Shown here piece by piece: positions 18,066 through 39,730 of a stretch of 43,065 bases of DNA. A program made the translations under genes and the position numbers. The notes below the pieces were generated by a model that ran no database searches, had not been told where the DNA came from, and saw only the letters and a program-made list of their open reading frames with translations. The DNA lies in the IMG/VR virus record IMGVR_UViG_3300012944_000014, positions 1 to 43,065 of that record; one strand, written 5' to 3'. The number at the start of each line of letters is the position of its first letter. The stretch's first letter is position 1. Origin of the DNA: a virus.

Positions 18066-18135
18066 CACGCCATGTCACTGGCATCAAATCACAATAAATC
18101 GAAAAGCTGACGTACCCGCAATTTGTGTGAGCGGA

Positions 18136-18696
18136 TCACGCGGCGTGCTGGTTGGCTTCGGGTTCTTCCTTGGGCATCGGGAGTGCGGCGCGCGCCACCG
18201 CGAGGATGAACCAGTCACGCCCGCCGAGCGCTTCAAACTTCAAGCGCGTCTCATGGGGCACGCGAAAGGCGAGCGTCAGCATGCGCCCTTGCGGCACCAC
18301 CGGACGCCCGCGCGGGCGCTTGGGGGCTTCGGCTTTCATTTGGCGCACGGTCTTGCGCGGCGCTGGCGGCGTTTTCGGGGCTTTGGGAGCCTTCGCCTTG
18401 GGGGGCTTGCGGATGCGCGCCAGCGCGGCCGTTTGGCCCGGTGCGGGCGCATAGGCGGGTTCGCGCACCGGGTGCAGCACGCGCAGCGTCGAGCCATCGA
18501 ACTGGCCCCCCTTGGCCATCGCGGCCTCGCGCAGTTGGCGCGCGTAGTTGGCAACGATCAGGCGTTCATCGGGGTCGGTCATCTCGGCCAGTTGCGCGAG
18601 CGCTTCGAGACGGTGGTGGCATTCGGTGCAGATACGCACTTGGCGCGGCACGATGGTCAATGGCCGGTTGCATTGCTTGCAATGGACGTTGGACAT
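18136..18696 (-). CDS. Zinc-ribbon protein with Lys/Pro-rich linker, unknown function (186 aa)
   Basis: The start is ATG 18696, preceded by AAGGA. Residues C6, C9, C23 and C26 (CKQC and CTEC) form a small zinc ribbon. A helical region follows (ALAQLAEMTDPDERLIVANY), then a Lys/Pro/Ala-rich linker (KPPKAKAPKAPKTPPAPRKT) and a compact C-terminal part (GRMLTLAFRVPHETRLKFEA). The basic linker and zinc ribbon would suit nucleic-acid binding. It is the last gene before the late promoter/terminator region, so its promoter-proximal role could be regulatory. No family is recognised. Confidence 0.65.
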   Translation of the reverse strand: MSNVHCKQCNRPLTIVPRQVRICTECHHRLEALAQLAEMTDPDERLIVANYARQLREAAMAKGGQFDGSTLRVLHPVREPAYAPAPGQTAALARIRKPPKAKAPKAPKTPPAPRKTVRQMKAEAPKRPRGRPVVPQGRMLTLAFRVPHETRLKFEALGGRDWFILAVARAALPMPKEEPEANQHAA

Positions 18697-18697
18697 G

Positions 18698-18853
18698 TCA
18701 GTCCTTGCGCATGGGCGCACTCGCCTGCCAAGGGGGCGCGAGCGACAGGGAATGAACGGCGCGTGGCGCCGACGATTGCGGAGCGCTTGGCTCAGGGTGG
18801 CCGGGGGTCTGAGCGGGGGCGGCAGCGCGCTCGTTGTGAGGATCATTGCGCAT
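18698..18853 (-). CDS. Possible small Pro/Ala-rich protein (51 aa)
   Basis: A short frame from ATG 18853 (or 18862) ends just before the zinc-ribbon gene. It fills an otherwise empty 150-bp gap. The product begins MRNDPHNERAAAPAQTPGHP and has no visible domain or strong ribosome-binding site. It follows directly on a cluster of ATTGATG repeats. Its reality is doubtful. Confidence 0.3.
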   Translation of the reverse strand: MRNDPHNERAAAPAQTPGHPEPSAPQSSAPRAVHSLSLAPPWQASAPMRKD

Positions 18854-18890
18854 TGATGTCATGAATTGATGTAAGCAATAATTATTGATG
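18852..18890. promoter_or_regulatory. Degenerate operator cluster (three ATTGATG repeats)
   Basis: ATTGATG occurs at 18852, 18865 and 18884. The middle copy extends as TTGATGTAAGCAATAA, close to the operator TTGATG-N4-CATCAA found at 20849, 22240 and 22308 and sharing the TAAG spacer with 22240. It lies directly upstream of the last genes of the accessory block. Confidence 0.45.
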
Positions 18891-18936
18891 GAAATGCACA
18901 CCATCGCAAGCGGGATCGTGAGCCTTGATGCGGGTT

Positions 18937-19386
18937 TCAGCGTTCCAGTTCGAGCCGACACACCAGCGTGGTATGCGCCAAAAGATCATTTTCTGCTTTC
19001 AATAAATTGAAACCATCGGGACGTTTGGCGGGCAGCATGCGTTGCGCGTAGGTCAGCACCGATTGACGCAAACGCGCATCGCCCGCCTTGAGCGTGCCAG
19101 CGACTACTTCGCGGTTGGTTGCCGCATCGATGTCTTTTGCGCTCCAGCCATCGGCGAGCGAGTGAAACGTGGTCGCGGCTTGTTCGCCCATCCAGGTGCA
19201 GAGTTGGTGCACTTGTGCGGGTGGCATGGTGTGAAAGGTGATCGAGGGGTATTCGCGTACCACGTCGTGCAACAGTTCGTTTTCCGCAAACGGCAGCACG
19301 CCCGCGCCACCCGCGCCGGCAAGGCTGCAGGCAAGGCCCAGGATCGACGCCAGCGCGTTTCTTGAGAAGCGGGTGGGCATGGTCAT
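18937..19386 (-). CDS. Exported or periplasmic protein of unknown function (149 aa)
   Basis: The ATG at 19386 overlaps the upstream TAA (TAATG). Residues 1-31 form a typical signal peptide: a basic start (MTMPTRFSR), a hydrophobic core (ALASILGLACSLAGAGGAG) and a likely cleavage site before VLPFAENE. The mature part is helical (WMGEQAATTFHSLADGWSAK, then QSVLTYAQRMLPAKRPDGFN) with two Cys. A phage protein sent to the periplasm from an operator-controlled accessory block may act on the lysogen, for example in exclusion or envelope change. That is only an inference, and no family is recognised. Confidence 0.7.
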   Translation of the reverse strand: MTMPTRFSRNALASILGLACSLAGAGGAGVLPFAENELLHDVVREYPSITFHTMPPAQVHQLCTWMGEQAATTFHSLADGWSAKDIDAATNREVVAGTLKAGDARLRQSVLTYAQRMLPAKRPDGFNLLKAENDLLAHTTLVCRLELER

Positions 19387-19910
19387 TAGCCGAAGTAGAA
19401 GGTGCGGGCATAGGCCAGCAGCGCATCGCGGTCATGGTCGCCAAAGAATTCGGTCCATGGGGTGCCCCAGTCCTGGTATTCGATCCAGGCGCGCGCAGGC
19501 TCGTTGTAGCGGTCCAGCTCGCCGATGATGCGGACAGCCGGCCCACCCGTGCAGAGCAGAATTTCAAACTCGCTCGCCTCCATCTTGTCGCCGACGTTGG
19601 TCCAGGTGCTGCGCACTTGCACGCTCAACGGGTCTTCGTGGATGTGCTGGCGCGCATCGTCCTGCGTCTCGCAGTCGCCCGCCGTCGCTTCGAGCGCGGC
19701 GAGTTCGGCTGCGTCATCGGGGTTGTCGATGGCCCATTGTGCGGGCGTGTCCATTTCTGGCGGACCCTCGATGCTGTGCACATGGTTCGTGCGGTCTTCA
19801 CGCAGTTCGGACAGGCGGTCATAGTCAACGTCCAGGGCGGCGACCAACGTGCGGATGGAATCAAGTTGGGCTTGCGCCTGTTCGCGCGCGTGGTTCACTT
19901 CTTCGGTCAT
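19386..19910 (-). CDS. Conserved-type acidic protein of unknown function (174 aa)
   Basis: The start is ATG 19910, five bases past the upstream stop codon. The first half is helical and acidic (AREQAQAQLDSIRTLVAALD). The second half has a well-formed, probably beta-rich domain (EFEILLCTGGPAVRIIGELD, then AWIEYQDWGTPWTEFF). The latter looks like a plasmid- and phage-borne family whose name I cannot give. It is part of the accessory operon that reads leftward from about 20.8 kb. Confidence 0.7.
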   Translation of the reverse strand: MTEEVNHAREQAQAQLDSIRTLVAALDVDYDRLSELREDRTNHVHSIEGPPEMDTPAQWAIDNPDDAAELAALEATAGDCETQDDARQHIHEDPLSVQVRSTWTNVGDKMEASEFEILLCTGGPAVRIIGELDRYNEPARAWIEYQDWGTPWTEFFGDHDRDALLAYARTFYFG

Positions 19911-19917
19911 GGGGTGT

Positions 19918-20382
19918 TTACTCGTTGATGCCAAGGTCGTTGTTGAATTGGTTTGGGTCGATGGATTGGCGCTCGTTTGCAGCGTAGTAAATCCATTCGT
20001 ACAGGCCTTGAAGATGGGCGCCAGAGATGCGCTGTTTGCGCGCCTTGAGTGCGAGTGTTTGGGCGCCTTGTTGCAGGGTTTCCAATGCGCTCAAAAGTTC
20101 ATCGCGCTCGTTGGCAATCGCTTCCTGTTCGCTGACATAGCGGCGCAGTTCATTGGCATCGCTGACGCCATCGGGCAATGCGCCGCGAAGATGGTGCAGT
20201 TCGCACAGTTGGGCTTCGAGGTCTTGCGGCGTGTCGATGCCTTTCGTGTCCAATGCAATGTCTGCGAAGGCTTTGGCCCCTTCGAGTTCATCGGTTGCGT
20301 CATGCACGCATTGGGGGAAGGGTTGCCCGTTGATGTAGGCGAATCGTTCGGCATCGGCAAAGGTCAGGTTGCTCAGGTTCAT
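19918..20382 (-). CDS. Helical protein of unknown function (154 aa)
   Basis: The start is ATG 20382 (MNLSNLTFADAERFAYINGQ). The protein is helical, with coiled-coil-like stretches (DLEAQLCELHHLRGALPDGV, then EQEAIANERDELLSALETLQ). No motif is recognised. It lies in a compact leftward run of accessory genes; the longer in-frame extension upstream overlaps the preceding gene and is rejected. Confidence 0.65.
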   Translation of the reverse strand: MNLSNLTFADAERFAYINGQPFPQCVHDATDELEGAKAFADIALDTKGIDTPQDLEAQLCELHHLRGALPDGVSDANELRRYVSEQEAIANERDELLSALETLQQGAQTLALKARKQRISGAHLQGLYEWIYYAANERQSIDPNQFNNDLGINE

Positions 20383-20455
20383 AGGGTGGCTCGTTGATGA
20401 TGGTGAGAAGTGTTTCCTGCTGCGTCGACGCCAGCGGCGCAGGGTGGAAAGACTC

Positions 20456-20734
20456 TCAATGATTCGGTTGCGACTCCAGCGCACTGATACGCTTTTCCAG
20501 TTCTTCGTAGCGCGTGTCGGCACGGTCATTGCGTTCGGCCAGCATCGGGTAAAGCTGTGCGATGGTGGTGTTGATCTGGCGCAGTGCGCTCAGGTTTTCA
20601 TTGAGGCTCAACACACTGCGCGAAAGGCTCACCATCACTTCGTCATGCTGTGTCTGCTTGGCGCGGATCGCGCCCAGTTCGATCAGGATTTTGTCAATCC
20701 GCTCAAGGGTCAAGTCTGCGATGTTGTCGGGCAT
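20456..20734 (-). CDS. Small coiled-coil protein (92 aa)
   Basis: The start is ATG 20734, with GAAAGA upstream. The whole product looks like one long helix pair: LTLERIDKILIELGAIRAKQ, then RSVLSLNENLSALRQINTTI and RADTRYEELEKRISALESQP, with regular heptads. No family is named. It is 8 bp from a tiny upstream frame and belongs to the same operator-controlled operon. Confidence 0.7.
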   Translation of the reverse strand: MPDNIADLTLERIDKILIELGAIRAKQTQHDEVMVSLSRSVLSLNENLSALRQINTTIAQLYPMLAERNDRADTRYEELEKRISALESQPNH

Positions 20735-20742
20735 GGAATCTT

Positions 20743-20844
20743 TCAGTTCTGGTAATAGGCGATGTGGCAGCGGCCCAGGTTCGGGCACACGTAGTAAACG
20801 ATGGTGAGCGTGCCGACTTGCTGGGTGAGGTAGGTTTTCATCAT
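20743..20844 (-). CDS. Micro-protein directly behind an operator (33 aa)
   Basis: From ATG 20844 (or 20841) a 33-residue frame begins MMKTYLTQQVGTLTIVYYVC and ends CHIAYYQN, stopping 8 bp before the next gene. It contains two Cys, several Tyr and a short hydrophobic segment. The perfect operator palindrome at 20849-20864 lies 4 bp upstream of its start codon, so it is the first gene of the operon. Short but plausible. Confidence 0.5.
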   Translation of the reverse strand: MMKTYLTQQVGTLTIVYYVCPNLGRCHIAYYQN

Positions 20845-20848
20845 GGGA

Positions 20849-20864
20849 TTGATGTTAACATCAA
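20849..20864. promoter_or_regulatory. Operator, perfect 16-bp palindrome
   Basis: TTGATGTTAACATCAA is a perfect palindrome in the 45-bp gap between the 133-aa gene and the 33-aa frame. It is the best member of a TTGATG-N4-CATCAA family in this window. Next to it, TACAC-N5-GTGTA (20867-20881) forms a second, smaller dyad. Confidence 0.75.
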
Positions 20865-20886
20865 ATACACAAACTGTGTAGCTTTT

Positions 20887-21288
20887 TCAGTCGCCAATGT
20901 AGAAATAGATGCGCCCGTCGATGCCCTCGAACAAGCGCCCGGCGACGTTGCCGCGTTCACACTCTGCTTGATAGGCGCTCCAGTCGGGCGGGAAACGTTC
21001 GAGGGCATCGGATTCGCGGATGTCGCCGGCAATCCATTGCACGCACATGGCCTGCAATTCGTCGGCTGACATGGTGTGTATTTCGCTGTCGTCCCAGCCA
21101 CCGGAAGCGCGCACGAAAGTGCGGAAGGCGTCCAGGGCATCGCCATCCTTCAAGGGCACAAACTGCGCACCTGCCAGCATCGATGCGTTCCAGGTGAGCG
21201 CGCCTGCATGGTCGCCGAGTTCCGCGCGCGAGGCTGACAGGTCAGCGGGTTCAATCTGAAAGAACAGATCAGTGACATCAAGTTCCAT
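20887..21288 (-). CDS. Conserved phage/plasmid-type protein of unknown function (133 aa)
   Basis: The product starts MELDVTDLFFQIEPADLSAS and continues SRAELGDHAGALTWNAS, FVRASGGWDDSEIHTMSADE, LQAMCVQWIAGDIRE and AGRLFEGIDGRIYFYIGD. I recognise this pattern (AELG-DAG-LTW, then Q-IAGDIRE and a GRIYFYIGD-type end) from plasmids and phages of proteobacteria, but know no function. Length is complete. It ends just before the operator at 20849. Confidence 0.75.
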   Translation of the reverse strand: MELDVTDLFFQIEPADLSASRAELGDHAGALTWNASMLAGAQFVPLKDGDALDAFRTFVRASGGWDDSEIHTMSADELQAMCVQWIAGDIRESDALERFPPDWSAYQAECERGNVAGRLFEGIDGRIYFYIGD

Positions 21289-21292
21289 GTTC

Positions 21293-21538
21293 TTACATCC
21301 CTACCATGGCCGCGCGCACCGTCGTTGCGCTGTAGGGTGCACCGTCGGGGGTATGCGTTGCGCTCATCTCGTCGCGAAGAAAGTTGAGCATCCCTTGTGC
21401 TGCGGCAGTTAATCCGCCGCGTCCATTGCGGCAGAAAATCGCATAGTCGCGCGCCGTGCGATACAACCCTTCGTCGTTGTTCAGCCAAAGACTCACGTTC
21501 CAGTGATTCCAGTTCTTATGCCCGTTGTAGGTTGCCAT
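21293..21538 (-). CDS. Small conserved phage protein, YNGHKNWNHWNVSLW family (81 aa)
   Basis: The start is ATG 21538. The N-terminus MATYNGHKNWNHWNVSLWLN is highly characteristic of a small protein found in many phages (I think DUF7249, name uncertain). DEGLYRTARDYAIFCRNGRG and a short C-terminal helix follow. Its function is unknown to me. It lies 5 bp upstream of the 133-aa gene and likely shares its transcript. Confidence 0.75.
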   Translation of the reverse strand: MATYNGHKNWNHWNVSLWLNNDEGLYRTARDYAIFCRNGRGGLTAAAQGMLNFLRDEMSATHTPDGAPYSATTVRAAMVGM

Positions 21539-21625
21539 GGTGTTTGCTCTCAATGATGTTTTGGGGGTGCAGCGTCCAAGCACTGCCCATAACGCACGCG
21601 AGGCATGCGCTACAGGCAAGGCTTG

Positions 21626-21829
21626 TCAACGGACCAAGGCGCGCGCCTGCGTGTAGAAGTCGATGCGCGATTGCACAGCGCGCAGGGTGTGGCGTTCGTC
21701 GCGCAGGTAGCGCTCCAGCGTGGCGGCAATGGCTTCGCTGGCGTCACGCCGCAGAATGGTCGTATCGCGTGCGCCGTCTTGGAGGGTGACGAAATGCGCG
21801 CCGTGCGCGCTGTAGGTGTGGATGTCCAT
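21626..21829 (-). CDS. Small protein of unknown function (67 aa)
   Basis: ATG 21829 starts MDIHTYSAHGAHFVTLQDGA, followed by RDTTILRRDASEAIAATLER and a basic C-terminal helix. No recognised family. It lies in the row of small genes after the operator-controlled promoter near 22.26 kb; spacing of about 30 bp to the upstream gene suggests one transcript. Confidence 0.55.
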   Translation of the reverse strand: MDIHTYSAHGAHFVTLQDGARDTTILRRDASEAIAATLERYLRDERHTLRAVQSRIDFYTQARALVR

Positions 21830-21860
21830 GATGTGTTGCTCGTTGATGTCGCTGGAGTGG

Positions 21861-22010
21861 TCAGAGGATGGGTGCTTGCGACAGGTCAACGATGCGATGC
21901 ACATAGGCGCCCCAAGCGTTGTCGCGTTGGTCACGTGCGAGCCGTGCGCGCTGTCGGGTCAGGTAGGTGCCGACGACAGCGCCAGTCTTGCTGTTGATAA
22001 GTTGAAACAT
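21861..22010 (-). CDS. Small basic protein of unknown function (49 aa)
   Basis: ATG 22010 starts MFQLINSKTGAVVGTYLTRQ and continues RARLARDQRDNAWGAYVHRI. It reads like a small beta-hairpin plus helix. No family is recognised. It lies 10 bp after the stop codon of the upstream gene. Confidence 0.55.
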   Translation of the reverse strand: MFQLINSKTGAVVGTYLTRQRARLARDQRDNAWGAYVHRIVDLSQAPIL

Positions 22011-22020
22011 GGCGCGTGCC

Positions 22021-22221
22021 TTACTTCGCCAGATTCCAGCGTGCATCGCGCTGCACCTCTGCCATGGATGGGATACGGCCGTTGGTCCATTCGGGCAGGT
22101 AGTAGGCGAGTTGCTCGCCATCGCGGCGCACGATGCAGACAGCGTGCGCATGCTGGCCAGCAGCGAGGACGGTTTGCACCGTGACGGAGTTTGGGATGGT
22201 GTGGGTCTTGAGGGAAGCCAT
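22021..22221 (-). CDS. First gene of the accessory operon, unknown function (66 aa)
   Basis: ATG 22221 starts MASLKTHTIPNSVTVQTVLA, with later HAVCIVRRDGEQLAYYLPEW. The product looks beta-rich. It is the first gene after the promoter/operator pair at 22240-22283, so it and the following genes should be regulated there. There is no clear ribosome-binding site. Confidence 0.6.
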   Translation of the reverse strand: MASLKTHTIPNSVTVQTVLAAGQHAHAVCIVRRDGEQLAYYLPEWTNGRIPSMAEVQRDARWNLAK

Positions 22222-22239
22222 GTCAGTTACCGCGTTTAT

Positions 22240-22255
22240 TTAATGTAAGCATCAA
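22240..22255. promoter_or_regulatory. Operator overlapping the promoter start region
   Basis: TTAATGTAAGCATCAA differs from TTGATG-N4-CATCAA at one base. It touches the -10 hexamer of the promoter at 22255-22283 and covers the expected transcription start, so a bound protein would block initiation. Confidence 0.65.
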
Positions 22256-22283
22256 TTAGAACACACTCACGCGGAGTATGCAA
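22255..22283 (-). promoter_or_regulatory. Sigma-70-type promoter for the accessory operon
   Basis: On the minus strand TTGCAT (22278-22283) and TCTAAT (22255-22260) are exactly 17 bp apart. The -10 matches TATAAT at 5 of 6 positions. It lies 34 bp upstream of the first gene and between two operator palindromes. Confidence 0.6.
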
Positions 22284-22307
22284 TAGTCTTGCATCGCGCA
22301 AGGGTAT

Positions 22308-22323
22308 TTGATGTTTGCATCAA
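22308..22323. promoter_or_regulatory. Operator upstream of the promoter
   Basis: TTGATGTTTGCATCAA, extended to 8-bp arms as ATTTGATG-TTTG-CATCAAAT (22306-22325). Its centre lies 68 bp from that of the operator at 22240. A further half-site, TTGATGCAAAC, follows at 22346-22356 and is an inverted copy of part of this operator. Confidence 0.7.
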
Positions 22324-22690
22324 ATGCGGCGCGGAGAGGCTGGAATTGATGCAAACAAGTAATCGAGCAGACAAATCCATGCAAGGGATGAATGAGACAG
22401 AGACGCGGCGGAGGTGTCTTGCGTCTGTCGCTGGCGTGCTGTCATGTCCCTGGCAACGCGCGTGTGTGTGCCCTCGCCCTGCCCTTCACGCACCCTCGCG
22501 CGGTGCAGCATCTGTGCTATCCCAGGGCAGGCTTGACACACCCCCAAACCCACCGGATTCGCCTAAGTCGTTGATCTGTAGGGGTGTGATCGGATTGCGT
22601 GGCCGATGGCAGGTATCAGGCGAGGGGGTGGGGTGGTCTGCAGGTACCGGGAGGGGCACGCTCGCCGAAGGCACCCCGCACCGCTGTGGG

Positions 22691-22706
22691 GCAAGGAATT
22701 CCTTGC
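22691..22706. repeat. Perfect 16-bp palindrome GCAAGGAATTCCTTGC
   Basis: The palindrome lies in the noncoding island, directly after CCCCGCACCGCTGTGGGG, which can itself form a short stem. Two adjacent dyads in noncoding DNA suggest a protein-binding or structural role. Confidence 0.75.
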
Positions 22707-22789
22707 GATCCGCAGCCCAGGTGCGTCTGTGTCGTGAACGATGGCGCATTGCTGCCTTCACGCGATCCCACCGCCCCTTCGCGCCAACA

Positions 22790-22870
22790 GGTACCATCTG
22801 CCGTGCTGGCGCGGTACCCACCCCCCGGTGAAATGCGCCCGGTACCATCCGCCAGATCAGCGCGGTAGCC
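22790..22870. repeat. Two similar ~30-bp units bounded by GGTACC
   Basis: Units at 22790-22818 and 22841-22870 both start GGTACCATC(T/C)GCC and end GCGCGGTA(C/G)CC; the period is 51 bp. Each can fold back on itself through the self-complementary GGTACC ends. A further GGTACC lies at 22643. Confidence 0.7.
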
Positions 22871-22967
22871 GCGAGAGTGATGGCGCAAGGCGACCACTGG
22901 ATGGGCGGCGACGGGTGCTTCCCGCAAGAGGGCAGGCGGGAGAGATGCGGGAACCACTCCGCGCGAG

Positions 22968-27914: not shown

Positions 27915-29540
27915 TCAGGGGTTCGGGCTTTCCTTGGCCATCTCGTTGAGCGCCCATTCGGCGGCGGGCAGACTGTTGGCCACCATGCGCACGGGGATCG
28001 AGAAACGCCGCACGTACTGCTGCTGCTCGTGCGTCAGGCGCTTGCGCGACAGGATCACCGCGTCGGTGGACGCCGGAATGTCGGCGTTGCTGTTGAAGTG
28101 GTCCTGCTTCACGTAGGTGAAGCGGTACTTGCGCCCCTGGCTGCGCTCCAGTTCCTCAAACACACGCGGGTGCAGGCCACAGACGAGCACGCTCTTGCGC
28201 TTCACATGCTCCATGCCGAGCGCCTTGGCAGTGGCTTCCAACTGTTCGGTGATGTCGTGCGGTGCATGTGGGGCCACGTTGCGCGGTTTTTCGGTGACAG
28301 GGAGTGCCCAAGACTCACCTTCGAGCGCAAACGTCTCCACGGCGGGTGCCGCCACCTCCACGGACACGTGCACCACCTCGGGCGGCAACGCCGCGATGGG
28401 AGCGGGCGCCGGCTCGATGACGATTTCCGCCGTGTCAGCGATTTCGGCTACCTCAGTGATGGCTGGCGATGGTGGCGGCGCGACCGGCCCGCCCAGTGCT
28501 TCTTCCAGCAACGCGTTCACGCGGGCGTCCAGGCGCATCCCCAACGCATTTTCGAGGTCGGCGCGGGTCAACGGTTGCCCACGCTCGAAATAACGCGCCA
28601 CGGCCCGATCCATGGCCGCGTCGAGGCGCGCGTCGACCACCGCTGCCAGCGACATCTCCAGGGTGGCGCGGAAATACGCGCCCAAGGTCGCATCGGCGCT
28701 TTCCGGGACAGAAATGGGCAGAGTGGGCGCGTTGACTACGACGGGGGGCGTCGGTTCGGCTGCAGCGACAGGAACAGGCGCTGGTTCGGATGCGGGTTCA
28801 GGCTTGTTGACAGGGATGTTGGCCACCAAATCCTTCAAGACTTCGAGCGCGGTGGTGGGCTTGGCTTCGGACGCAGCCGCCACGCAATCCGATTCAGGCG
28901 CCGGGGGCGCGATCTTCGCGGTTTTGGCCCGCACAATGCTCAACAGGGTCTTGGGCGCGGCCACCAAGCCCACCGGACGCGCCTCAGTGGCCTGCAATGC
29001 GCGCAATTGTGCGGCGAAGCCGTGCGTGTAGAAGCTGTTGGCGATGGATTTGCGGGGTTTGCGCCGGGCCATGGGGAACTGGCGGATTTGCGCATTCACC
29101 ACCGCTTCGATGAGCGCGGCGAGGGCGCCACCCTTCACGTGTTCGTCCAGCGCTTGCATCACTTCGCCGTCGTTGGCAATCAGGGTGTTTTCGCGGGGCG
29201 TCCACCGGAGTTGGGCGCTCACGCTGGGTGCCGGCGTGCTTGGCATCTTGGCCTTGGCGCGTGCGATGAGCTTGTCAAATTGTTGCGGATCGTTGACCAC
29301 GCACACGTACAGCGAGTCGAAGGTGCGTTGGCGTGCCACTGGCAGGATGCCGGCCTGCGCCTCCAGCACCAATTTCAGCCGCTGGCGCGCGTCCTCGGTG
29401 TCAAGAATTTCGGGACAGTGCCGGAAAAGCCGCACCAGTTCGGCGTCATCCCAGCGAATCTGCGCGCCCAGTGTGGCCTGCACCCGGGTGTGCGGCTTGC
29501 GCTTCATGGGCGCATCAACGGCAGTGGTAGCGGCGGTCAT
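27915..29540 (-). CDS. Large early protein of unknown function, possible DNA-binding protein with Rossmann-like C-terminus (541 aa)
   Basis: ATG 29540 starts MTAATTAVDAPMKRKPHTRV. Two short W-x-E/D helical segments (IRWDDAELVRLFRHCPEI near residue 30 and LRWTPRENTLIANDGEVMQA near 115) look like Myb/SANT-type helices. They are followed by a basic stretch, MARRKPRKS. A long Pro/Ala/Val/Glu-rich linker leads to a C-terminal alpha/beta domain (KRKSVLVCGLHPRVFEELER, then DAVILSRKRLTHEQQQYVRR and IPVRMVANSLPAAEWALNEM) that resembles a DUF2325-like fold. It has its own promoter candidate at 29574-29602. It is the largest early gene after the helicase. Function is unknown; a nucleic-acid or regulatory role is a guess. 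Confidence 0.72.
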   Translation of the reverse strand: MTAATTAVDAPMKRKPHTRVQATLGAQIRWDDAELVRLFRHCPEILDTEDARQRLKLVLEAQAGILPVARQRTFDSLYVCVVNDPQQFDKLIARAKAKMPSTPAPSVSAQLRWTPRENTLIANDGEVMQALDEHVKGGALAALIEAVVNAQIRQFPMARRKPRKSIANSFYTHGFAAQLRALQATEARPVGLVAAPKTLLSIVRAKTAKIAPPAPESDCVAAASEAKPTTALEVLKDLVANIPVNKPEPASEPAPVPVAAAEPTPPVVVNAPTLPISVPESADATLGAYFRATLEMSLAAVVDARLDAAMDRAVARYFERGQPLTRADLENALGMRLDARVNALLEEALGGPVAPPPSPAITEVAEIADTAEIVIEPAPAPIAALPPEVVHVSVEVAAPAVETFALEGESWALPVTEKPRNVAPHAPHDITEQLEATAKALGMEHVKRKSVLVCGLHPRVFEELERSQGRKYRFTYVKQDHFNSNADIPASTDAVILSRKRLTHEQQQYVRRFSIPVRMVANSLPAAEWALNEMAKESPNP

Positions 29541-29655: not shown

Positions 29656-30054
29656 TCATTTGGGGTTCAACTCCTTGGCATGGTCCGAAAGCATATGATG
29701 CCTGACCAATTCGCGCGCGTCACTCACCAATTGAAACAATGTGGTGTAGCTGACATTCAACTTTCGCACGACCTTGGCCGGTGCGCAGCGCTCAACATAA
29801 CACCAACGCAGCGCCGTGCGGTGATAGGTGGGCAGGGTTGCCACCACGTGTTCCATGGCGTCCCCTTCTTGCGTGTCGATCTGGATCGGGATTTCCGGTG
29901 GGCTCCAGGACCGCGCGTTGGAGCGCGTGAAGCGCCACATCGGCGCGGGCTTGCTGGCGCGCGTGAGGCGCACGTACAGGCCCCAGTTTTCCAACAGGGC
30001 ATGCACCCGAAAGTGCTCCGGGGCGACGTAGTGAAAGTCAAGCTGCGCTTTCAC
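29656..30054 (-). CDS. Q-like late antiterminator / sigma-region-4-type regulator candidate (132 aa)
   Basis: The start is GTG 30054, overlapping the upstream stop as GTGA. The N-terminal half begins MKAQLDFHYVAPEHFRVHAL and contains LENWGLYVRLTRASKPAPMW. The C-terminal half has LPTYHRTALRWCYVERCAPA followed by KVVRKLNVSYTTLFQLVSDA and REL, a helix-turn-helix like sigma-70 region 4. Phage late regulators of the Q/ArpU type share this layout and length. It precedes the accessory block and late operon on the same strand. With the promoter and tandem terminators before terS, this makes it the best candidate for late control. Not proven. Confidence 0.6.
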   Translation of the reverse strand: MKAQLDFHYVAPEHFRVHALLENWGLYVRLTRASKPAPMWRFTRSNARSWSPPEIPIQIDTQEGDAMEHVVATLPTYHRTALRWCYVERCAPAKVVRKLNVSYTTLFQLVSDARELVRHHMLSDHAKELNPK

Positions 30055-30562
30055 CCGCGCGCCTGCGAAGCCTGTGAAGTTTGCGAATGGCGTTGATACG
30101 GCTCCAGCACCAGCCGGCGAAACAGCCGCGCCTTCTCGGGATCGGCGTCGAATTCCTTGCGGCTCGCGACCACGCAAATGCGCTTGATCCACTCGCCTGC
30201 GTCCCGGGCGTTGGTGACGCCGGCCCAGGCCCAAAACTCTGGCGCGGCGCCGATGGTGATCGCCGCTTTGGTGAGCGTGCCCAGGTCATCCCACCGCTCG
30301 GCTTGTGCGGCGGACATCTGCCGCGTGGGCTTGGCGGGTTCGGGCTCGGCCGACAGGCACGTGAGCGCGCCACGGCCGTCCCGCAAGCCTGCCACCACGA
30401 CCCCTTGGCCCGGTGTGCCAAAGAGGTGCCAAAGAGCGCGAACGCGGCCTGTGCCAGCGCCGGCTCGATGTCTACGGCAAGGCGCAACGTGCCGTCCGCC
30501 AACGTGCGGCAGTTGACGCTCACGCCCTCGATGACGCTGGTGGTCTGCGAGGGTTGCGCCAT
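30051..30562 (-). pseudogene. Conserved phage gene disrupted by an 11-bp tandem duplication
   Basis: ATG 30562 overlaps the upstream stop (TGATG) and starts MAQPSQTTSVIEGVSVNCRT, then LRLAVDIEPALAQAAFALFG. After this the frame is lost. In another frame the protein continues TPGQGVVVAGLRDGRGALTC, then SAAQAERWDDLGTLTKAAIT, EFWAWAGVTNARDAGEWIKR and KARLFRRLVLEPYQRHSQTS. The break is an exact tandem copy of an 11-bp word (30415-30436). Removing one copy restores one 166-residue frame ALFGTPGQGVVV. The intact type is known in phages (LRLT-DIEP, AFALFG-PG) without function. The duplication is either a true lesion or an assembly error. Confidence 0.65.
30415..30436. repeat. Perfect 11-bp tandem duplication
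   Basis: GTGCCAAAGAG occurs twice in a row (30415-30425 and 30426-30436). As 11 is not a multiple of three, it shifts the reading frame of the gene it lies in. Confidence 0.95.
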
Positions 30563-30891
30563 CACGGCTTCTCCCAGTTGCGCTCGATCCATTCCTGCAC
30601 TTCGGTGCCGGTCCAGTTCTTGCGCAGCGACACCGGAAAGCGCGGCGGTGTGGGCGGCGGGCGCGGTGCGTCATCGGCCGGGTGCACGCGCGCGTTCCAG
30701 CGCTCCAGCAACTTCTCGCGCGCCATCTCGATGCTGCCCATCTTGATGAGGATGGAAGACGCTCCGCAGCGCACGTTGTCGCACTCCACGTAGCTGCCAC
30801 CGCCGTGCGTGGTGCCGTTTTGCGGCACCAGATGGAAACTCGCCGTGGTGCCGCAAAACGGGCATGCGGCCAAGGTGTAGAGCGTTGCCAT
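30562..30891 (-). CDS. Lar-like restriction-alleviation protein (109 aa)
   Basis: The product starts MATLYTLAACPFCGTTASFH with CPFC at 10-13, then YVECDNVRCGASSILI with a second Cys pair, and ends the domain with EMAREKLLERWNARV. This is the pattern of the Lar family (a CPFC, then C--C-A, then A---WN-R), small zinc proteins that alleviate type I restriction. A Pro-rich linker and a helix (WTGTEVQEWIERNWEKP) follow. The link to anti-restriction is from family knowledge; many such proteins are untested. Confidence 0.75.
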   Translation of the reverse strand: MATLYTLAACPFCGTTASFHLVPQNGTTHGGGSYVECDNVRCGASSILIKMGSIEMAREKLLERWNARVHPADDAPRPPPTPPRFPVSLRKNWTGTEVQEWIERNWEKP

Positions 30892-34593: not shown

Positions 34594-34854
34594 TCAGATG
34601 ATGCGCGCAGCCGCTTCGGCGCGGCGGCGCACCCAGTAGGTGGGCAGGGGTTGCTTTTTGTGGCGGTGGGCCAGCACGATATGTGCGGCTTGCTGCCACA
34701 TGTCCAGGTGTTCGAGCCGAACCTTGTAAGGGATTCCGCGCGTACTCCAGTTGCAGATGCGCTGCAGTCCATGGTCCACCGGCCAGCCGAGCCGTTTCAG
34801 GACTTCCATGGGTCCGCCCAGCGCGTCGATCAACTCGCGGTCGGAGATTTGCAT
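34594..34854 (-). CDS. Cro/YdaS-like helix-turn-helix regulator (86 aa)
   Basis: ATG 34854 starts MQISDRELIDALGGPMEVLK; then RLGWPVDHGLQRICNWSTRG and IPYKVRLEHL complete an HTH like those of Cro/YdaS proteins (the pattern ALGG---V---LG, then Q-I-NW--RGIP). A basic tail follows. It is transcribed away from the CI-like repressor across a 198-bp gap, the usual position of Cro, and is first in the early operon. No good ribosome-binding site is seen, so it may be weakly translated. Confidence 0.75.
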   Translation of the reverse strand: MQISDRELIDALGGPMEVLKRLGWPVDHGLQRICNWSTRGIPYKVRLEHLDMWQQAAHIVLAHRHKKQPLPTYWVRRRAEAAARII

Positions 34855-35052
34855 GGATGCATGCTACACCTGAACTGGAGCACGTTGCAAAATTTTTAGT
34901 GGTTCTGAGGGTTTCTTTGCGAAAGATGCAAATGTATGAGGCTATAACCAATAGAAACTGGTCGTATCAACAAGATTGCTATACAGTTTGTTTAGCGTGT
35001 AGCTATATCCACGGTTAAAGCATCAACGAGCATCCATGCGAAAGACATCAAC
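34855..35052. promoter_or_regulatory. Divergent switch region between the Cro-like and CI-like genes
   Basis: This AT-rich gap contains GCTATA at 34941, 34978 and 35002, a TATACA box near 34980, and CATCAA half-sites at 35021 and 35046 in the leader of the repressor. The CATCAA half-sites recall the operator family at 18.9-22.3 kb. Promoters for both genes should lie here, but no pair of hexamers is convincing enough to fix. Confidence 0.5.
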
Positions 35053-35826
35053 ATGACCACCAGCAAACGTTTGACACGAGACGAGATGCACCCCTCGCTC
35101 GGACGGCTTTACGAGCTTGCGCAAGAGCATCTAGGTATCTCAGGCCCCACCGCCTTGGCCAAGGCACTGCAGGAAACGACACAGGGCGTGAACAACTGGA
35201 GTCGTGGGCGAGGCGTCTCCAACAAGGGCGCCATGAAGGCGCAGAAGCTGTACGAATGGTCTGCCGCCTGGATCATGGAGGGCACGGGTCCACGACTCGT
35301 GAGGCCCACGATTTCCGAGTTGATTGAGGCCCCCGTGGTGATACCCAAAGAGATGGTGACTTACTCGGCTATCGTGGCTGAGTTGATGCCCTTTCCAGAG
35401 GGCAAAGGCGACGTTGACGTGGCGAAGCTGGAGCCCATCGACAAGGCGCGCGGGGGCTACGTCCTGGTCATCTTCCCCCACAAGAACGCCAAACTGGAAG
35501 CCTACTGCGTGGCCAAAAATGTGTTCACCCACAACAACCGACTCAATGCCGGCGAGTTCGTGGTGGTGGACCTCAATGCCGAGCCCCAGGTGGACGATGA
35601 AGTGCTGGTCGGCCGTGGCAAGGATGGCGCGCGGCGATGGGCGCTGGAGCGCTTCGCGTTCTGCCACGATGGCATGCACTACTTCTTTGATCCCAAGAGC
35701 GAATCGAAAGTGAAGTTCTACACCGATGTGTCCGATCTTCGCGTGATGGTCGCCATCAACTCACGCCATTCACTCATTCCAGCGGCGCCCATACCCATAC
35801 CTGCCGGTGTGCCGGAAAGCATGTAA
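35053..35826 (+). CDS. CI-like phage repressor, HTH plus S24/LexA-like C-terminal domain (257 aa)
   Basis: The N-terminus has an HTH (LGRLYELAQEHLGISGPTAL, then AKALQETTQGVNNWSRGRGV and SNKGAMKAQKL). After a linker the C-terminal half (KNVFTHNNRLNAGEFVVVDL, then DDEVLVGRGKDGARRWALER) follows the beta-fold of S24 peptidases. The usual Ser in the S-M-x-P motif is not visible, and no clear Ala-Gly cleavage site is seen, so self-cleavage is doubtful. It is the first gene on the plus strand, divergent from the Cro-like gene, and is closed by a terminator. It most likely keeps the prophage silent. Confidence 0.8.
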   Translation: MTTSKRLTRDEMHPSLGRLYELAQEHLGISGPTALAKALQETTQGVNNWSRGRGVSNKGAMKAQKLYEWSAAWIMEGTGPRLVRPTISELIEAPVVIPKEMVTYSAIVAELMPFPEGKGDVDVAKLEPIDKARGGYVLVIFPHKNAKLEAYCVAKNVFTHNNRLNAGEFVVVDLNAEPQVDDEVLVGRGKDGARRWALERFAFCHDGMHYFFDPKSESKVKFYTDVSDLRVMVAINSRHSLIPAAPIPIPAGVPESM

Positions 35827-39674: not shown

Positions 39675-39700
39675 GAGCGGGCTCGATGATTGGTAAACAG

Positions 39701-39730
39701 TGCGTGTAGTTTAACCCTGTTTTACACGCA
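39701..39730. promoter_or_regulatory. Inverted repeat upstream of the integrase gene
   Basis: TGCGTGTA (39701-39708) and TACACGCA (39723-39730) form a perfect 8-bp dyad with a 14-nt centre, 27 bp upstream of the integrase start and between it and the attP core. It may be an integrase or excisionase arm site or a repressor operator. Confidence 0.55.

Follow-up and report, generated by a model that had tools for sequence, protein, structure and literature searches.

By gene content, the 43,065-base virus record analysed here (the window) belongs to a temperate tailed phage, with structural and packaging genes (terminase, portal, scaffold and tail), primase and helicase genes, an integrase and a Cro/YdaS-like protein, as well as ERF, Gp157 and an excisionase-like protein. 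Outside the CI-to-excisionase group (35–38 kb), every recognised gene is read leftward. A CI-like repressor is encoded at 35053–35826 on the plus strand and a Cro/YdaS-like DNA-binding protein (phrog_8008) at 34594–34854 on the minus strand. A small protein at 30562–30891 matched Lar restriction-alleviation proteins (E 5.5e-9), with an Ogr/Delta zinc finger below the cut-off, and the product of 29656–30234 gave a weak Sigma70 region 4/DUF1492 match and may be a late-transcription regulator.

Between the early-left genes and terminase lies an accessory block (18.1–22.2 kb) of three units, all on the minus strand. Unit A (20887–22221) comprises five small genes, at 22021–22221, 21861–22010, 21626–21829, 21293–21538 (DUF7249) and 20887–21288 (phrog_24784). 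Unit B (18937–20844) comprises genes at 20743–20844 (33 aa), 20456–20734, 19918–20382, 19386–19910 and 18937–19386, and the product of the last has an N-terminus that, judged by eye, resembles a signal peptide. Unit C (18136–18862) consists of a possible 54-aa ORF (18698–18862) and a 186-aa protein (18136–18696). Members of the DUF7249 family were seen in the early regions of Slopekvirinae phages, phiKDA1 among them; the phrog_24784 product has a homologue near the XacN1 genome end, and in three other viral contigs the gene at 19386–19910 has DUF7249 in its neighbourhood. For three block genes in all, relatives were found in other phages, most of them virulent, and for two of the three these lie in early or genome-end regions; this points to genes of the infection phase rather than of the lysogen phase. 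On the other side of unit A, about 570 bp (22400–22967) hold no clear gene and several GGTACC-containing repeats.

The TTGATG-N4-CATCAA dyad and its promoters

Inspection of the block revealed five sites of a TTGATG-N4-CATCAA dyad, all in non-coding DNA ahead of leftward genes and inside 3.5 kb. Unit A has three: OA1 (TTAATGTAAGCATCAA, one mismatch; 22240–22255), which covers the -10 end and the +1 of the unit, OA2 (TTGATGTTTGCATCAA, perfect, with 8-bp arms ATTTGATG and CATCAAAT; 22308–22323), 68 bp upstream of OA1, and the weaker OA3 (TTGATGCAAACAAGTA, with a perfect left arm and 3/6 matches in the right; 22346–22361), 106 bp upstream of OA1. A perfect copy, OB (TTGATGTTAACATCAA, 20849–20864), lies before unit B, and a degenerate copy with two mismatches, OC (TTGATGTAAGCAATAA, 18866–18881), before unit C. 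The copies at 20849, 22308, 22240 and 18866 that the first-pass annotation had listed were thus all found in the sequence, the full ones in intergenic DNA as described there. Another dyad, ATGCAATAGTCTTGCAT, was noted over the unit A -35 (22278–22294), and GATGCAA/TTGCATC is common to it and the operators.

Counts of the dyad over the whole window were well above those in dinucleotide shuffles, both for perfect copies (2 seen vs 0.00 expected) and for copies with at most one mismatch (4 seen vs 0.10 expected per window); the fourth of the latter, at 29503, sits within an ORF. A control matched to the local AT-rich composition (509 bp) gave expectations of 0.000, 0.0055 and 0.07 against 2, 3 and 4 observed, the middle pair referring to copies with at most one mismatch. 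Since the motif was picked after inspection of the sequence, and about three gapped hexamer dyads are expected to recur twice by chance in such sequence, the two perfect copies are insufficient alone. Independent evidence comes from the third copy, the confinement to 3.5 kb of non-coding DNA, the promoter register and a score matrix built from the three best sites (20849, 22308 and 22240), with 18866 and 22346 held out. The held-out sites scored 28.0 and 19.4 bits, respectively, against a control maximum of 18.7 bits, so that 22346 stands only marginally above background. Of the half-sites claimed earlier, this marginal site was retained, and those at 18082, 35021 and 35046 were discarded, their other arms matching at 2/6. 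Lone TTGATG hexamers carry no weight, because the window contains 57 of them against 23 expected. The hexamer at 35021, taken earlier for a CI half-site, is part of a recurrent CATCAACGAG (19929, 20398, 21847, 32353 and 35021), which directly precedes gene starts in four of five cases and is possibly a shared ribosome-binding leader.

Analysis of the position of the dyads relative to promoter-like sequences revealed one register at 22240, 20849 and 18866, where the final base of a -10-like hexamer is also the first base of the 16-mer. The 17-bp-spaced promoter noted in the first-pass annotation is present. In PA (TTGCAT-N17-TCTAAT, 22255–22283, minus strand), the last T of the -10 is the first base of OA1 on that strand. 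PC (TTGCGA-N17-AATAAT, 18881–18909, minus strand) stands in the same register to OC, as does, more weakly, the promoter-like PB (CTGAAA-N15-TGTATT, 20864–20890, minus strand) to OB. The position of the dyad relative to the core promoter is thus fixed at PA, PC and the weak PB. As the 16-mer starts at the last -10 base, it covers the transcription start; the other two unit A copies have their centres about 66 and 104 bp upstream of that start. With 8–9 of 12 matches (PB 8 of 12, spacer N15), the promoter hexamers are weak, and the block is no richer in promoter-like sites than shuffles are. A recurrent dyad, commoner than chance and bound to promoters, is what a set of repressor operators would look like, and the dyads are placed as operators of the three units, a function read from this anatomy. 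The earlier proposal of an operator shared across the accessory block is borne out to this extent: the motif is non-random, clustered and held in one promoter register.

CI-type dyads in the window and in homologous loci

Eight homologues of the CI-like protein were found in Burkholderiaceae (genomes of the Delftia family), and all eight loci (L135–L142) carry a dyad of TAAAC-N5-GTTTA or TACAC-N5-GTGTA type at the CI start; the closest homologue, in L135, has TACAC-N5-GTGTA. Across these loci, 15 such sites fell in 1,368 bp near CI starts vs 8 in 23,654 bp elsewhere. The window contains three candidate operators of this type by pattern match: TATACAGTTTGTTTA in the CI-Cro intergenic region (34980–34994), TAAACAGTGCGTGTA, 20 bp ahead of where integrase starts (39694–39708), which suggests repressor control of integrase, and TACACAAACTGTGTA over the -10 and spacer of PB (20866–20880), abutting OB. 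TACACAAACTGTGTA and TAAACAGTGCGTGTA fit exactly the consensus drawn from the relatives only, TAMAC-N5-GTKTA, for which 0.00 matches were expected in 100 controls, and TATACAGTTTGTTTA has one mismatch to it. One base of the broader TAHAC pattern comes from the window itself, and a matrix built on all CI-family sites fails to separate the CI-type sites of the window from background (top 12.4 vs control maximum 16.4); these sites are therefore a good lead, not proof.

The CI-Cro region of the window has no TTGATG dyad, and none with at most one mismatch was found near CI in the eight homologue loci. The difference in type between it and the operators of homologous CI proteins argues that CI binds something other than TTGATG-N4-CATCAA.

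Candidate binders and control of the accessory block

These results bear on the binder suggested in the first-pass annotation, the phage's own CI-like or Cro-like regulator, which would control the accessory block through the dyads. Phage repressors can have scattered operators, the block would be a natural target, and some relatives have CI-type dyads outside the CI-Cro junction; the proposal is nevertheless unlikely, as that junction, in the window and in all eight homologous loci, has the TAMAC-N5-GTKTA type where the TTGATG dyad is missing. Binding by a host regulator, which would couple the accessory genes to host physiology, is still less probable. Dyads of 16 bp over +1 are common for host repressors, but such a regulator would be expected to have chromosomal sites of its own, and the exact motif occurred at chance level, once in 301 Delftia-family genomes and five times, always singly, among 185 from the class; all six chromosomal matches overlap ORFs of >80 aa and look like chance. 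No regulon thus appeared in about 485 genomes, a sample that may not cover the actual host or looser sites. The box of FNR/ANR is TTGAT-N4-ATCAA; its half-sites TTGAT/ATCAA are shared by the phage dyad, which spaces them by 6 and not by 4. IHF, FNR and replication iterons were rejected on sequence, spacing or position.

About as improbable as a host regulator is an activator, for example the possible late-gene regulator at 29656–30234, acting at the place of a late promoter upstream of terminase. The copy at 22308, at about -66 of PA, has a usual position for an activator site, and the block lies where such a promoter might be sought, between the early-left genes and terminase; the three best-registered copies, however, lie over +1, where binding would block RNA polymerase, and no convincing copy accompanies the terminase gene itself. 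Least credible of all is that no protein binds, the dyads being chance-alike AT-rich promoter sequence or weak RNA hairpins. The abundance of single hexamers, some of them part of gene-start leaders, would agree with this; the local control cited above does not, and in the weaker copies, at 18866 and 22346, only one arm is kept, so that a hairpin can no longer form.

We consider it probable (about 0.6) that the phage encodes a repressor dedicated to the accessory block and distinct from CI, and that the dyads are its operators. Protein binding, repression and the phage origin of the binder are what we infer from the sites. Because dyad copies sit over their start points, the three gene groups probably share an off-switch: a putative dimer would bind TTGATGYWWRCATCAA over the -10/+1 of the three leftward promoters and shut units A, B and C, and the two extra unit A copies might strengthen repression, perhaps by looping or cooperative binding. 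Control of unit B would be twofold, since the CI-type dyad also lies over its -10. The first-pass annotation saw the block as a good candidate for genes expressed in the lysogen, a reading that gained no support: operators over +1 imply repression, one promoter also has the CI-type dyad over its -10, and the phages among the relatives are mostly virulent.

The candidate binder is the product of 18136–18696, encoded behind the 18866 site, which would act also on its own promoter; this assignment is the weakest step of the scheme and is offered tentatively. The protein has weak N-terminal zinc-ribbon matches and a basic linker, and its C-terminus, which resembles small proteins with a GRP...LGG..W pattern, shares this pattern with a homologue (43% identity over 63 residues). 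Structure prediction was poor for the full-length protein; a low-confidence model of the C-terminus (pLDDT 67) has two helices after an extended stretch, with no strand in the monomer. This C-terminus is a possible ribbon-helix-helix, a domain for which the product gave no significant Pfam match, and a fold search returned no PDB match.

Taken one step further, two repressor circuits may meet at unit B, where CI-type and TTGATG-type operators abut, and a takeover-like block may be held off by both the immunity repressor and a dedicated zinc-ribbon/ribbon-helix-helix repressor; we regard this combined picture as rather doubtful. The regulation is otherwise ordinary for a phage, its notable feature being two operator types abutting at one promoter. 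On this reading the accessory block stands apart from the immunity circuit, and each promoter can be assigned the regulator to which it should respond. With virulent-phage relatives known for three block genes, control of the block in a temperate phage bears on how the lysogen is spared harm from such genes.

Known systems and relatives

A close analogy for a dedicated repressor may be Mnt/Arc of P22 (immunity I), ribbon-helix-helix repressors that form a second repressor circuit apart from the prophage repressor and act at a short dyad at a promoter. The candidate here would likewise be a second circuit of a temperate phage with a ribbon-helix-helix analogue; it differs in having three units and five sites and a regulator that is a candidate only, and no Mnt or Arc homologue was identified. 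The stoperators of mycobacteriophages, numerous asymmetric sites throughout the genome that are bound by the immunity repressor, resemble the dyads in being spread away from the immunity region (PMC9283540), whereas the present sites are few, symmetric, promoter-bound and restricted to one block. In phages that pair CI with a YdaS-like Cro (prophages of Lampropedia and other Burkholderiaceae; L087, L135–L142), the CI operators are likewise dyads at phage promoters, and the window has this type at 34980, 39694 and 20866; TTGATG-N4-CATCAA is another sequence.

Searches for relatives gave little for comparison. The TTGATG dyad was absent from the regulatory DNA of 84 terminase relatives; no promoter-bound set of it was found among these phages, but they do not share the block genes. 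No close relative of the accessory block was found, so conservation of the sites could not be shown. A paired-site scan of viral contigs gave no match, and an extended single-site scan gave 37 stretches, all of lower GC (0.33–0.50) and none with a comparable site cluster. Viral contigs contained no relatives of the CI-like protein or the 18136–18696 protein, and a literature search for the exact sites gave no match. As a by-product, the comparison yielded an operator consensus for the family of this CI/YdaS-Cro group. In two of its loci, L087 (751–801 and 1561–1611) and L138 (1433–1471 and 2461–2498), the CI-type dyads cluster twice, at the CI-Cro junction and again about 0.8–1 kb away.
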